DNA from: Verrucomicrobiota bacterium
GTDB taxonomy: Bacteria > Verrucomicrobiota > Verrucomicrobiia > Limisphaerales > UBA9464
Assembly: GCA_016871615.1 (NCBI GenBank)
Contig: VHCX01000024.1
Coordinates: 1 to 45,588, forward strand
Reading direction: 5' to 3'
Length of the DNA stretch: 45,588 bases
This document shows positions 30,222 through 37,166 of the stretch, in pieces. Below the pieces are notes generated by a model. The model had not been told where the DNA came from and did not search any database. It was given only the letters and a program-made list of their open reading frames with translations. Each line of letters starts with the position of its first letter. Within the stretch, counting starts at the first letter, position 1. Both the position numbers and the translations under genes were made by a program.

Positions 30222-30995
30222 ATGGCCGCCACCGCCGCCCCGACCGCCGCCAAGGCGCCAGCGAAGGACACCGGAGCCCTGCTCTCGGTGCAGGGCCTCG
30301 CCAAGTCCTACTCCGGCCGCCGCGTGGTGGACGGCGTGTCGATCCACGTTGGCGCGGGCGAGATCGTGGGTCTTCTCGGGCCGAACGGGGCGGGCAAGAC
30401 CACCTCGTTCAACATGACCGTCGGGCTGGTGCGCCCCGACGCCGGCACGGTGCAATTCGACGGCATCGACATCACCCGGCTGCCGATGCACCGCAGGGCG
30501 CGACTGGGCATCGGCTACCTGACGCAGGAACCCAGCGTGTTCCGCAAGCTGACGGTCGAAGAGAACCTCCTGGCGATCCTGGAGACCTGCGAGGGATCCG
30601 CCGCCGAGCGCCGGTCCCGCCTGGCCCACCTGCTCGACGAACTCGACCTCGCCCGGCTCGCCAAGAGCCGCGCCTACCAGCTCAGCGGCGGCGAGAAGCG
30701 GCGTCTGGAGATCACCCGGGCGCTGGTCACCTCGCCGCGGCTCCTGCTGTTGGACGAGCCCTTTGCCGGCATCGATCCCATCGCGGTGTACGAGGTCCAG
30801 AAGATCGTCCGCCGCCTGCGCGACCGCGGGCTGGGCATCCTGATCACCGACCACAACGTGCGCGAGACCCTGCGCCTCGTGGACCGCGCCTACGTGATCC
30901 ACCAGGGCCGCGTGCTCGTGGAGGGCAAGGCCGAGTTCCTCGTCAACGATCCCAAGGCCCGGGACATCTACCTCGGGCCCGACTTCAACATGTGA
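30222..30995 (+). CDS. lptB: LPS export ABC transporter ATPase LptB
   Basis: This 257-residue cytoplasmic ATPase has Walker A GPNGAGKTT (residues 53-61), signature LSGGEKRRLEI, Walker B LLLLDEPFAGIDPIAV and the switch His in ITDHNVRETL. LTQEPSVFRKLTVEENL is characteristic of LptB. It powers extraction of LPS from the inner membrane with LptF and LptG, which are not encoded in this window. About 20 extra Ala/Lys-rich residues precede the family start (LSVQGLAKSYSGRRVV). It is separated by 2 nt from lptA and overlaps hprK if that gene starts at its GTG. Confidence 0.95.
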   Translation: MAATAAPTAAKAPAKDTGALLSVQGLAKSYSGRRVVDGVSIHVGAGEIVGLLGPNGAGKTTSFNMTVGLVRPDAGTVQFDGIDITRLPMHRRARLGIGYLTQEPSVFRKLTVEENLLAILETCEGSAAERRSRLAHLLDELDLARLAKSRAYQLSGGEKRRLEITRALVTSPRLLLLDEPFAGIDPIAVYEVQKIVRRLRDRGLGILITDHNVRETLRLVDRAYVIHQGRVLVEGKAEFLVNDPKARDIYLGPDFNM

Positions 30996-31027
30996 GCCGA
31001 CCCCGCCCCGCCCCGGACATGCCTCCC

Positions 31028-31969
31028 ATGAAGCCCTCCAACGTCACCGTCGAGAAGTTCTACACGGACCACGCCGGGCCCCTGGGGCTGAAGCTGCTGA
31101 CCGGCGGCAACCACCTCGACCGGCTCATCCTCGAACCCACGGTGAACCGCCCGGGTCTGGCCCTGGCCGGTTTCCGCAGGTATTTCGCCAACAAGCGCCT
31201 GCAGGTGCTCGGTGCGGTCGAGACGTCCTACCTGAGGTCGATCGATCCCGGGTTGCGCCGCCAGCGTTACGCCGAGCTCTTCCGCCACAAGATCCCCTGC
31301 CTAGTGCTGTGCCGGGGCATCCGCCCGGAGCCGGAACTGCTCTCGGCCGCCGACGGGCGGGGCGTGCCAGTGTTCCAGAGCGGATTGGTGACCATGAAGT
31401 TCATCAACCTTGCGACCCTGGCCCTCGAGCAACTATTCGCCCCGAGGACCCAGATCCACGGCTGCATGGTCGACATCCAGGGCATCGGCGTGGTCATCCA
31501 GGGCGAGAGCGGGATCGGCAAGAGCGAGGCGGTGCTGGGGCTGCTCGAGCGCGGGCACAGCCTCGTCTGCGACGACGTGGTCTGCCTGACACTGGCCGAC
31601 GGCCGGGAGCTTTTCGGCACCGGCAAGGCCCTGACCCGCAACCTGATGGAGGTCCGCGGGATCGGCATCATCGACGTGGCCGCCCTCTTCGGCGTCTCGG
31701 CCATCCGCGCCGAGAAGCGCGTGGACCTCGTCGTCACGCTCAAGACCTGGGAGAAGGCCGGCGAGATCGACCGCCTGGGCATCGACCAGGCCCACGTCAA
31801 CCTCCTCGGCATCGACATCCCGCACATGGACCTGCCCGTTCGCCCCGGCCGAGACATCGCCCGCGTCATCGAGGTCGCCGCCCTGCACACCAAGCTCAAG
31901 CTCAGCGGCATCAACCCGGCCGAGGACCTCCAGCGCCGCCTGCTGATGCAGATGAACCCGCGGCTGTAG
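31028..31969 (+). CDS. hprK: HPr kinase/phosphorylase
   Basis: The protein has 313 residues from ATG 31028. In-frame GTG 30992 would give 325 and overlap the lptB stop by 4 nt; ATG 31019 is a third option. The chosen start leads straight into VTVEKFYTDHAG, as in homologues. The kinase domain has the P-loop GESGIGKSE, DDVVCL, and the HprK signature LMEVRGIGIIDVAALFG. The enzyme phosphorylates HPr on Ser and reverses this, which links sugar uptake to gene regulation. Its place behind lptB is the same as in many Proteobacteria, where rpoN, hpf and ptsN lie in between; those are missing here. No PTS genes are in the window. Confidence 0.93.
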   Translation: MKPSNVTVEKFYTDHAGPLGLKLLTGGNHLDRLILEPTVNRPGLALAGFRRYFANKRLQVLGAVETSYLRSIDPGLRRQRYAELFRHKIPCLVLCRGIRPEPELLSAADGRGVPVFQSGLVTMKFINLATLALEQLFAPRTQIHGCMVDIQGIGVVIQGESGIGKSEAVLGLLERGHSLVCDDVVCLTLADGRELFGTGKALTRNLMEVRGIGIIDVAALFGVSAIRAEKRVDLVVTLKTWEKAGEIDRLGIDQAHVNLLGIDIPHMDLPVRPGRDIARVIEVAALHTKLKLSGINPAEDLQRRLLMQMNPRL

Positions 31970-31977
31970 AAACCAAA

Positions 31978-32079
31978 GGGGTCGGTCCTCACTATTGACA
32001 CAAACACACCCCGGGGCACACCCCGGGGGTCAGTCCTCACTATTGACACAATTTGTGTCAATAGTGAGGACTGACCCCC
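31978..32079. repeat. REP-like palindrome with a third copy of its arm
   Basis: The sequence has three copies of a 26-27-bp element beginning GGGGTCAGTCCTCACTATTG. Copy 1 (31978-32003) has one visible change (TCGG for TCAG). Copy 2 (32025-32051) and inverted copy 3 (32053-32079) form a perfect 27-bp inverted repeat around a single base. Between copies 1 and 2 lies a doubled ACACCCCGGGG. It sits between the convergent ends of hprK and the GlcD-type gene. The motif resembles long REP elements spread by RAYT-type transposases. It could also stop transcription from both sides. Confidence 0.85.
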
Positions 32080-32125
32080 TTGCTGGCTGCCGCTGACCCC
32101 CTCGCCGCATGCCGCACCTCGCCGT

Positions 32126-33502
32126 TCAGCCGAGGAACTTGCCCGGGTTGAGGATGCGGGCGGGGTCGAGGGCGGTCTTCACGCGGCGGTGGAGCGTGTC
32201 GGACTCTGGTGACACGGCGAGGGACCACCAGGGCTGCTTGGCCAGGCCGACGCCGTGCTCGCCGGTGATGCTGCCGCCGAGGGCCACGATGCCCTGGAAC
32301 AGTTCGTCGAGGGCCCGGTCGCTGGCGGCCCGTTGCGCAGGCACCGACTCGTCGAGCATCAGGTTGACATGGATGTTCCCGTCGCCGGCGTGCCCGAAGC
32401 AGGCCACCTGGATGCCGTGCTTCTTCTGCAGCGAGGCCCCCAAGCGGAACAGCGCCTCGAGCGATCCCCGGGGCACCACGACATCCTCGTTGAGCTTGGT
32501 GAGGCCGGTGTCGCGCAGGGAGTAGCTGAACTCCCGGCGCAACCTCCAGAACCGCTCGCACCCCTCCGGTCCCAGCCCGCGCTGGACGAAGGTCGGCCGG
32601 AAGTCCGCCAGCAGGCGGGCCAACTCGGCGATCTCCGAGCGGACACCCCGCTCGCGGCCGTCCAACTCCACGATCATCAGGGCCCCGGCCCCACGGAGCA
32701 GTTTCGAGCCGGTCCGACGCCGGGCCGCGTCGACCGTGAAGCCGTCGGCCAGCTCGAGCGCGCTCGGCAGGAACCGGGCCGCGAACAGGGCCCGGATCGC
32801 CCGGGCCGCGGTCTTCATGTCGGGGAACCCGACCCCCAGGCAGGCTCGATAGGCCGGGAGCGGCAGCAGCTTGAGGGTCGCCTCGGTGACCACGCCCAGC
32901 ATCCCCTCGCTGCCCACGAAGAGCCGGTGCAGGTCGAGGCCGGTCTTGTTCTTGTGGGTCCGGGCGCCCAGCCGGGTGATCGTGCCGTCGGCGAGCACCA
33001 CCTCCAGGCCGAGCACATAATCCCGAGTGACACCGTACTTCAGGCAGCGCGGACCGCCGGCGTTGGTGGCGATGTTGCCCCCGATGGAACACTCGGTGCG
33101 GCTGGCCGGATCCGGTGGATAGTACAGGTCCCGTCGCTCGACGGCCTCCTGCAGCCGGGCCGTCTTCACGCCGGGCTGCACCACCGCCACGAAGTCACGC
33201 GGGTTGATCTCGAGGATCCGGTCCATGCCGGCCATCGACAGGGCGATGCCGCCCCGCACGGGCACGCAGCCCCCGACATAGCCGTGACCGGCCCCGCGCG
33301 GGGTGACGGGAATGCCATGCCGCGTGGCGAAGGCGAGGATCCGGGAGACGGAATCCACCGAGTTCGGCAGCGCCACCGCCTCGGGCGGGTGCGAGGCGAA
33401 CCATTTGTCCCCAGCATGGGCCGCCAGGGCTTCAGGAGTGAAGACCAGTTCGCCGGGTGGCAATCGCCGCGCCAGGCGACCGAGGAGGGACTGTCGAGTC
33501 AC
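32126..33502 (-). CDS. GlcD-type FAD-binding oxidase/dehydrogenase
   Basis: This 458-residue protein has an FAD-binding PCMH domain with VTPRGAGHGYVGGCVPV and SIGGNIATNAGGPRCLKYG, followed by a C-terminal FAD-linked oxidase domain that ends in CFGHAGDGNIHVNLM, GSITGEHGVGLAKQPW and LDPARILNPGKFL. This is the plan of glycolate oxidase subunit GlcD and D-lactate dehydrogenases. GlcE and GlcF partners are not adjacent, so it may work alone on a 2-hydroxy acid. The substrate is not readable from the sequence. The start is a GTG at 33502 with no clear ribosome binding site. Its 3' end faces hprK across the palindromic repeat. Confidence 0.9.
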   Translation of the reverse strand: MTRQSLLGRLARRLPPGELVFTPEALAAHAGDKWFASHPPEAVALPNSVDSVSRILAFATRHGIPVTPRGAGHGYVGGCVPVRGGIALSMAGMDRILEINPRDFVAVVQPGVKTARLQEAVERRDLYYPPDPASRTECSIGGNIATNAGGPRCLKYGVTRDYVLGLEVVLADGTITRLGARTHKNKTGLDLHRLFVGSEGMLGVVTEATLKLLPLPAYRACLGVGFPDMKTAARAIRALFAARFLPSALELADGFTVDAARRRTGSKLLRGAGALMIVELDGRERGVRSEIAELARLLADFRPTFVQRGLGPEGCERFWRLRREFSYSLRDTGLTKLNEDVVVPRGSLEALFRLGASLQKKHGIQVACFGHAGDGNIHVNLMLDESVPAQRAASDRALDELFQGIVALGGSITGEHGVGLAKQPWWSLAVSPESDTLHRRVKTALDPARILNPGKFLG

Positions 33503-35564: not shown

Positions 35565-37166
35565 ATGTCCCAAGCCCTGTCCCAAGCCCTGTCCCAAGCC
35601 CTGTCCCAAGTTCTGTCCCAAGTCCTGTCCCAAGCCCTCCAGGTGCTGCGTCGCCTGGCCTTCCTCGCCCGGGCCGCGGCCCTGGCACTCGTCGCCCTCA
35701 GTGCCTGCCCGCCCTCCCTCGGCGCCGACCTGAAACCCAACCCGAAGCCGTCGGGCCCGCAGACCGACGGTGCCTTCCACAAGGTCATCCTCGACACCGA
35801 CCGCGACCAGGATGGCGACGGTCAGCCCGAGGACACGGTGGTCAACCCCATGGAGATCGCCGTCGCCCCCGACGGGCGGGTCTTCTTCATCGAGCGGGCC
35901 GGCCTGCTCAAGGTCTGGGACCCCAAGACCCGGGCCACCACGGTTGCCGGAACCCTCAAGGTCTACACCGAGCTGGAGGACGGCCTGCTCGGCATCGCCC
36001 TCGATCCGAAGTTCGCCCGCACCTCGTGGATCTACCTCTTCTACTCCATGCCGGAGACGCCGGTCGACCCGGACGGGCACAAGACCGGCGTAAACCGTGT
36101 GTCGCGGTTCACCCTGCGCGGTGGAACCCTCGACCTCGCCAGCGAGAAGATCCTGCTGAGCATCCCCACGCAGCGCGACCAGTGCTGCCACTCGGCCGGA
36201 TCCCTGGCCTTCGACGCCGCCGGCAACCTGTACGCCGCGACGGGCGACAACACGCATCCCGGCGAATCCGACGGCTACAGCCCGATCGACGAGCGCCCCG
36301 GGCGCGAGCCGTGGAACGCCCAGAAGTCGGCCTCCAACGCCAACGACCTGCGCGGCAAGATCCTGCGCATCCACCCCGAGCCCGATGGCACGGCCACGAT
36401 CCCGGCCGGCAACCTCTTTCCCAAGGGCTCGCCCGGGACGCGGCCGGAGATCTACGTGATGGGCAACCGCAACCCCTTCCGCATCAGCGTGGACCACGCG
36501 ACCGGACACCTCTACTGGGGCGAGGTCGGGCCCGACGCCGGCGGCCCCAACGACCAACGGGGCCCGGCGGGCTTCGACGAGATCAACCAGGCCCGGGCCG
36601 CCGGCAACTTCGGCTGGCCCTACTTCGGCGGCGACAACCGGCCCTACCACCGCTACGACTTCGCCTCCCGACAGAGCGGCGAGGCCTGGGATGCGGCCCA
36701 CCCGGTCAACCCCTCGCGCCTCAACACCGGCCGGGCTGAACTGCCGCCCGCCCAGCCCGCCTTCCTCTGGTATCCCTACGGCGCCTCCACCCGCTTCCCC
36801 GCGGTGGGCAACGGCGGTCGCACCGCCTGCGCCGGTCCGGTCTACCGCTACGACGGGCGATCGACCTCCCCGAACCGCCTGCCGCGCGAGTACGACCGCA
36901 CGCTGTTCATCTACGAATGGTCGCGCAACTCGATCATCGCCGTGCACCTCGACAAGGATCACCGCATCGCCAAGGGGCCGGATGGCCGCCTGCTCATGGA
37001 ACGCTTTTGCCCGGGCATGACCTTCATGCGCCCGATGGACCTGGAGATCGGCCCGGACGGCTGCCTGTACGTGCTGGAGAACGGCTCCGCTTGGGTCGGC
37101 AACCGGGACACTCAGCTGGTCCGCATCGAGCACCGGCCCGACGCAGGACGCCCCGCGAGGCCCTGA
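35565..37166 (+). CDS. PQQ-type sugar dehydrogenase-like protein with repetitive lipoprotein leader
   Basis: The protein has 533 residues from ATG 35565. The six-bladed soluble glucose dehydrogenase fold (GSDH) is indicated by [78 protein letters not shown] and [20 protein letters not shown]. Relatives oxidise sugars in the periplasm with PQQ, though many members bind no cofactor. The N-terminus is odd: residues 2-25 are six copies of a 4-residue unit (SQAL or SQVL) encoded by a 12-bp tandem repeat. A membrane segment and a lipobox LSAC (Cys48) follow. A non-ATG start inside or after the repeat is possible. It lies 122 bp after aroC. Confidence 0.85.
35568..35639. repeat. 12-bp tandem repeat at the start of the sugar dehydrogenase gene
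   Basis: Six copies of TCCCAAGCCCTG follow the ATG directly; copies four and five carry single changes (GTTCTG, GTCCTG) and the sixth ends in CTC. Being a multiple of three, changes in copy number would alter only the length of the signal-peptide n-region and not the frame. Confidence 0.9.

Follow-up and report, generated by a model that had tools for sequence, protein, structure and literature searches.

A probable three-copy cluster of a TIRYT-type terminal inverted repeat, in unusually tight mirror-image form, between hprK and an oxidase gene of a Verrucomicrobiota genome

The window analysed here, a stretch of 45,588 nucleotides from a Verrucomicrobiota bacterium, carries a convergent spacer of 156 bp between hprK and a gene for an FAD-linked oxidase (Table 1), and the convergent setting given in the original prediction was upheld, and both gene families were confirmed with Pfam. 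A repeat search of the window recovered the predicted 55-bp palindrome at 32025-32079, whose two 27-bp arms are perfectly complementary, as had been claimed. The third, direct copy of the arm is also present, 25 of 26 bases being identical between 31978-32003 and 32026-32051; its distance had been put at 47 bp, and the start-to-start spacing is 48. The 22-bp arm was found three times in the window, every match being exact although up to three mismatches were allowed, and not once in 100 shuffles; the 24-mer of arm 1 is identical to the genome consensus. Folded as single-stranded DNA the palindrome reached -31.7 kcal/mol, as compared with -6.4 +/- 1.9 in shuffles (z -13.2), and the RNA fold of 116 nt around it reached -74.4 kcal/mol (z -10.1). 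An Rfam scan of the window gave no match above threshold. The terminal motif (GGGGTCA or GTGTCAGTCCC) was noticed in at least two successive partial copies at one edge in the transposase units L106, L188, L090 and L175, and at 32071-32101 of the window. Elsewhere in the window, at 35566-35638, a 12-bp unit is repeated six times inside a long open frame.

Table 1. Features of the hprK-oxidase spacer and its neighbouring genes (window positions)
Feature	Position	Strand	Source
hprK, HPr kinase/phosphorylase, left neighbour, start codon uncertain	30992..31969	+	Pfam
Arm 1, common G form (AAA-GGGGTCGGTCCTCACTATTGACACAA), GGGG end adjoins hprK stop	31975..32003	+	Repeat search
12-bp unit CACACCCCGGGG, present twice in direct order, lying between arms 1 and 2	32005..32028	.	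Repeat search
Arm 2 (A form, GGGGGTCAGTCC...), left-hand half of tight palindrome	32025..32051	+	Repeat search
Arm 3 (A form), right-hand half of tight palindrome; 27/27 bases pair with arm 2, 1 base apart	32053..32079	-	Repeat search and fold
Partial extra end CTGACCCCC, in second unit of 22-bp imperfect tandem repeat 32071-32115	32093..32101	-	
FAD-linked oxidase (GlcD-like), right neighbour, convergent	32126..33502	-	Pfam

The arm is a multi-copy repeat and is not confined to this spacer, as its 15-bp core occurs 64 times in the genome at two mismatches or fewer (49 copies exact; reversed control, 0). A recognisable 24-mer is kept in 63 of the 64 copies, the exception being C40:12283, with 37 copies exact and 19 bearing one mismatch, and the reversed 24-mer found nothing in the same DNA with up to seven mismatches. 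Fifty-two of the 63 arms lie outside predicted genes, though the loci are 79% coding, the genes having been called by a rough home-made finder which makes the in-gene count a rough one and did not class all the window arms as convergent. Spacers of every gene orientation are occupied. Single arms number 32, two of them belonging to the transposase gene described below, and the remaining 31 are grouped within 300 bp. No second end was noticed for the single arms, in that no 9-mer within 300 bp downstream was common to more than five of the 32, and viral contigs held no exact match to the 22-bp arm.

PF01797, the Y1 transposase family, has eight matches in this genome, and all of them are on other contigs, in agreement with the predicted absence of a RAYT gene from the window. 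A Y1 gene flanked by the same arms, which the original prediction had suggested looking for, exists on contig C6 of the same genome. It is bounded by inverted exact arms, one just upstream and one just after the stop, which are alike in 33 of 33 bases, and the whole arm-transposase-arm unit measures about 1.04 kb. The gene spans 328 codons if it starts at a TTG that lies inside the arm and about 316 if it starts at an ATG, which is likelier, and its product scores 47.5 bits with PF01797 (cut-off 23). The motifs NHFH and YVHLNP were invariant in 42 of 42 aligned transposase sequences, and the catalytic tyrosine is presumed to be Y119 of P0001. The AlphaFold2 model of the protein has a mean pLDDT of 86.5, and over residues 1-173, which the fold matches cover, its best match among solved structures was 4er8, the TnpA-REP on REP hairpin (Z 16.0, rmsd 2.3, 156 aligned), the IS200/IS605 structures 2a6m and 2xma scoring well below it (Z 8.1-10.5). 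Helices are predicted over residues 234-308, in the C-terminal part; an HTH there (Bac_DnaA_C, HTH_23, HTH_28) gave no Pfam match in six of six members at E up to 10 with HMMER filters on. Searching solved structures by sequence profile gave no match with A2 (E to 0.01) or A3 (E to 10), and the two proteins scanned with NCBIfam NF047646 (REP-associated tyrosine transposase) scored 51.8 and 49.3 bits, the curated cut-off being 80. The genome has two further relatives of this transposase, on C103 and (partial) on C14, with a different arm, GGGGTCAGTTCTTGATATTG, of which there are 14 copies at three mismatches or fewer, 11 of them exact. The A-form arm was considered as the arm of this second transposase and was ruled out, since the C103 arm reads otherwise. 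Four other PF01797 genes (L034-L037; C21, C47, C76 and C1) match the first half only or in two pieces, and their fetched flanks contained no arm copy at four core mismatches or fewer.

Canonical REPs are self-hairpins that carry a GTAG-type tag. The single arm was found to have no self-hairpin on either strand (z +0.79 and +0.78) and carries no GTAG. The REP/RAYT guess of the original prediction thus stands as regards a multi-copy, mostly extragenic repeat with a same-genome Y1 gene bearing the same arms, and falls as regards the folded, tagged arm. Because the single arm does not fold, we reject a canonical REP and classify the arm as a terminal inverted repeat (TIR) of the TIRYT kind. In the portion of Di Nocera et al. 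2013 (PMC3733652) used here, TIRYT genes are described as RAYT-like and flanked by long inverted repeats with the motif GGGGWSAS, and their TIRs as dispersed in some genomes as single, dimeric and grouped copies. The present system is alike in its Y1 gene, in its long inverted repeats, in the motif, read here as GGGGTCAG or GGGGTCGG, and in the occurrence of singles, dimers and groups; GGGGTCAG of the window palindrome fits the motif and GGGGTCGG of the C6 arms is one base off. It is unlike the TIRYT/TIRtron elements of that account in its Verrucomicrobiota host, in a common form that has G for the motif A, and in the tight dimer with a loop of 4-5 nt. TnpA-Y1 subclass 2.1 of Quentin et al. 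2018 (PMC6006769) takes 20 of 26 TIRYT examples, and the passages of that paper dealing with it report no adjoining REP-like sequence. We noticed the same long Y1 protein, HUH and Y motifs and extra C-terminal domain; on the other hand, the C-terminal HTH given for the subclass there is without Pfam match here, where only helices are predicted, and here the arm is a dispersed family of 64 copies. IS200/IS605 elements have the same HUH/Y1 fold and a unit bounded by recognised ends, but their hairpins are described as subterminal (PMC6006769, in part), whereas here the inverted repeats are linear and singly unfolded, and the protein is longer.

A further comparison is with the REPIN/RAYT system as set out in the relevant part of Bertels and Rainey 2011 (PMC3116915), in which each arm would be a tagged hairpin and doublets the only replicating unit. 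The likeness is real, as there is a Y1 transposase, many extragenic short copies, inverted doublets that fold and a matching gene, and 4er8 is the best structure match. The single arm, however, is no palindrome and is unfolded on both strands (z +0.8), GTAG is absent, the protein exceeds 310 aa with a helical C-terminal part, and the score with the NCBI REP_Tyr_transpos model is under its cut-off. Moreover, the mean number of mismatches was 0.60 in 30 singles not flanking a transposase and 0.29 in 14 spaced-doublet arms (p 0.50), so that in this small sample singles show no measurable excess of decay, in contrast to the REPs of P. fluorescens SBW25 in that account, and a strict doublet model would not lead one to expect this. 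We therefore consider the canonical REP/REPIN explanation highly improbable. The window element is instead a mobile repeat of a kind already known, its mirror-image arrangement being unusually tight, and in all likelihood it is a three-copy cluster of the TIR of a TIRYT element, whose inward-arm units would be mobilisable by an HUH/Y1 transposase.

The arm has a lineage-specific presence. At one mismatch or fewer it was found in 17 of 96 genomes, own genome included (6 of 19 in the genus, 5 of 31 in the rest of the family and 6 of 46 in the order), while the transposase was found at 1e-40 in 34 of the 96. The three closest homologues of the transposase (86, 71 and 69% identity) bear the same arm, and a near variant of it was seen in G004 (64%). 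In G052 (65%) and most of the rest the arms are related yet distinct, or no arm was detected. G010 holds 21 arms, yet no transposase of the C6 family at 1e-40, its assembly being 88% complete. When 84,980 named genomes were scanned, the best 80 of 235 loci were retained, 74 of which are Verrucomicrobiota by title. The assemblies with L151, L175, L189, L193, L207, L212 and L222 are titled Akkermansia muciniphila, a name that looks doubtful beside Pedosphaera-like relatives. Among the 78 of these best 80 loci that had enough flank, an inverted repeat above shuffles was present in 58 (a few of them not of GGGGTC type) and absent in 20, and the motif GGG[GA][AT][CG][AG][CG] stood on both sides in 35. 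We also compared 58 anchored arms drawn from 82 loci, in which the start GTCRGT is nearly constant, the end is mostly TATTGA (44-55 of 58 per base), six middle bases vary, and the A/G position reads A in 43 and G in 15. Arm and transposase distances were correlated with a Mantel r of 0.28, a value reached in 5 of 5000 permutations, and arms would thus appear to diverge along with their transposase, weakly but beyond chance. With this modular arm in mind, another reading deserves mention, in which the Y1 transposase would recognise a linear arm with GGGGTCRGT and TATTGA ends and the lineage-specific 6-base middle as an address; the amplifying unit might then be a single arm of ~31 nt, and back-to-back landing would make the tight palindromes. 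On the whole we regard this reading as doubtful.

In the preferred reading, two inward-facing arms make up the unit. A clear orientation bias was noticed, as among neighbouring arms up to 300 bp apart 13 pairs face inward (+-), three are ++, one is -- and none faces outward (-+). Spaced doublets were read in six genomes, 23 in all with lengths of 108-241 bp, and eight doublet pairs with related spacers were compared using 250-base flanks. In five of the eight, each pair lying inside one genome (G010 C28; G044 C49, C32/C28 and C16/C39; G000 C64), both flanks were no more alike than unrelated DNA, and the G010 pair consists of two 126-bp copies with 124/126 by score. Copies in unrelated flanks within a genome show that these doublets moved, or were copied, as units. 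The doublets at G000 C64:11752 and G010 C140 have both flanks alike and those of G007 and G003 one flank alike, which points to descent and not movement; the G024 pair, which has a repeated flank, counts for neither. On 12-base flanks doublets had seemed to move from species to species, a reading that was dropped, since the 250-base flanks proved alike on both sides or on one. A 124-bp doublet occupies the same place in two species, namely G000 C64:11752 (L039) and G010 C140 (L273 291-414), and judged by this place common to G000 and G010 some doublets are old. At the C64 site, homology with relatives ends about 8 bp before the GGGG edge, and the far side is rearranged, which leaves no readable junction.

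Taken as a TIRYT element, that is an HUH/Y1 single-strand transposase gene between inverted arms of about 24-31 bp, the system could work as follows. Mobilisable units would be two inward-facing arms with their GGGG ends outside, either the transposase unit (about 1.04 kb) or short non-coding doublets. The enzyme would, judging by its fold family, act on single-stranded DNA, in which a doublet is expected to form an extended hairpin whose base is GGGG/CCCC. This hairpin should need two arms, because one arm does not fold. A C6-type transposase may then cut at the GGGG/CCCC edges and rejoin the strand elsewhere, by analogy with TnpA-REP and IS200/IS605 enzymes, and it is from this analogy that we infer mobilisation by such a transposase. 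The 55-bp palindrome would be two arms nearly back to back, a minimal doublet, which probably either landed next to an older single arm or developed out of it. Within the literature searched, the terms TIRYT and TIRtron occurred only in PMC3733652 and PMC6006769, and the parts of these covered here contain no mechanism test for TIRYT enzymes. The present genome and its relatives offer material for one, namely one transposase with exact arms and about 60 arm copies, doublet copies in unrelated flanks, a second same-genome transposase with its own arm, and arms in which the variable middle follows the transposase. The arm family is itself a non-hairpin repeat with REP-like behaviour.

Furthermore, we compared the same spacers in relatives. 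Both hprK and the oxidase gene were in the fetched flank at 13 of 19 genus loci, and 11 of these 13 syntenic loci have no arm in the spacer, up to seven mismatches being allowed. The armless spacers comprise eight of 387-454 bp with a 114-codon open frame and three short ones without it. This frame after hprK (L117-L120, L122-L124, L126) apparently encodes a membrane protein. It is missing in G000 and G010, but the three short armless spacers lack it too, and its loss therefore does not go with the arm. G010, the closest, has one arm in a spacer of 66 bp, where the window has three. The G010 arm lies in the opposite direction with CACCCCGGG next after it, as after arm 1 of the window, and the stretch may therefore have been inverted. 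Similar observations were made with the tight palindrome on C74, in the spacer between apbE and tatD, which was absent from six of six syntenic relatives (spacers of 109-125 bp, no arm); in three more distant relatives apbE and tatD abut. These comparisons bear on a further explanation, that the element is a bidirectional terminator or mRNA 3'-end stabiliser for hprK and the oxidase gene, selected as such. The convergent 156-bp spacer with its very strong RNA fold would suit such a role, and the tight palindrome of C74 also stands between convergent genes, apbE and tatD. However, among the five independent tight sites described below only these two were seen in such a setting, no T-tract follows the palindrome on either strand, the element is absent from 11 of 13 syntenic relatives, arms lie in spacers of every gene orientation, and any such role could be a by-product. 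A terminator scan gave nothing for the palindrome and, on the minus strand, a single weak site (32028-32009; 0.2 expected). We thus hold selection as a terminator or stabiliser to be distinctly unlikely. The hairpin ending both convergent transcripts, as the original prediction had it, finds no support in the sequence; termination may occur as a side effect, though the sequence lends it no support either. The tight palindromic form could be mistaken for a terminator.

The tight form of the doublet measures 52-53 bp between GGGG edges, with a loop of 4-5 nt, and was found on C19, C24 (the window), C74, C113 and twice on C91. The two C91 palindromes have flanks and loop in common, so these are five independent sites, and they have five different loops. 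Four of the six palindromes carry A for G at arm position 7. The A form is one base off the arms of the only matching transposase, and another, unseen gene may be its mobiliser. An exact pattern for the dimer matched five sites in the genome itself, of which four are tight palindromes and the fifth is a shorter palindrome of C91. Across the 95 remaining genomes it gave one unlike match, in G043, and no tight palindrome; the pattern misses two of the six tight palindromes of the window genome and may miss variants in relatives as well. The reversed control pattern matched one site in each of nine genomes, so that one match is at chance level and five are not.

In view of the near-perfect pairing of these arms, an alternative is that fold-back template switching at a single arm created the tight palindrome on the spot and that this process, rather than transposition, maintains its pairing. 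Template switching has been reported to homogenise inverted-repeat arms (PMC8794818 and PMC8604942, in the parts consulted), and loops do differ across the five independent sites while the arms pair nearly perfectly. Some departures from the consensus are common to both arms, the shared and one-sided counts being 6 and 5 in tight palindromes and 0 and 4 in spaced doublets, but this difference is not significant (Fisher p 0.10) and shrinks to 2 and 5 versus 0 and 4 without the A/G position; these counts are suggestive only of a concerted arm change in tight palindromes. Besides, fold-back copying should often enter the flank, whereas pairing beyond the arm edge extends outward by only 0-3 bp in the six tight palindromes. 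An origin by template switch is accordingly unlikely in our view, and the minimal doublet of a TIRYT-type TIR is preferred. A distance of 1256 bp separates the two tight C91 palindromes. One of them is preceded, at about 160 bp, by the shorter palindrome, which is perfect and built from the same end (GGGAGTCAGTCCTCA / TGAGGACTGACTCCC; G000 C91:10921-10942, L042 4922-4943).
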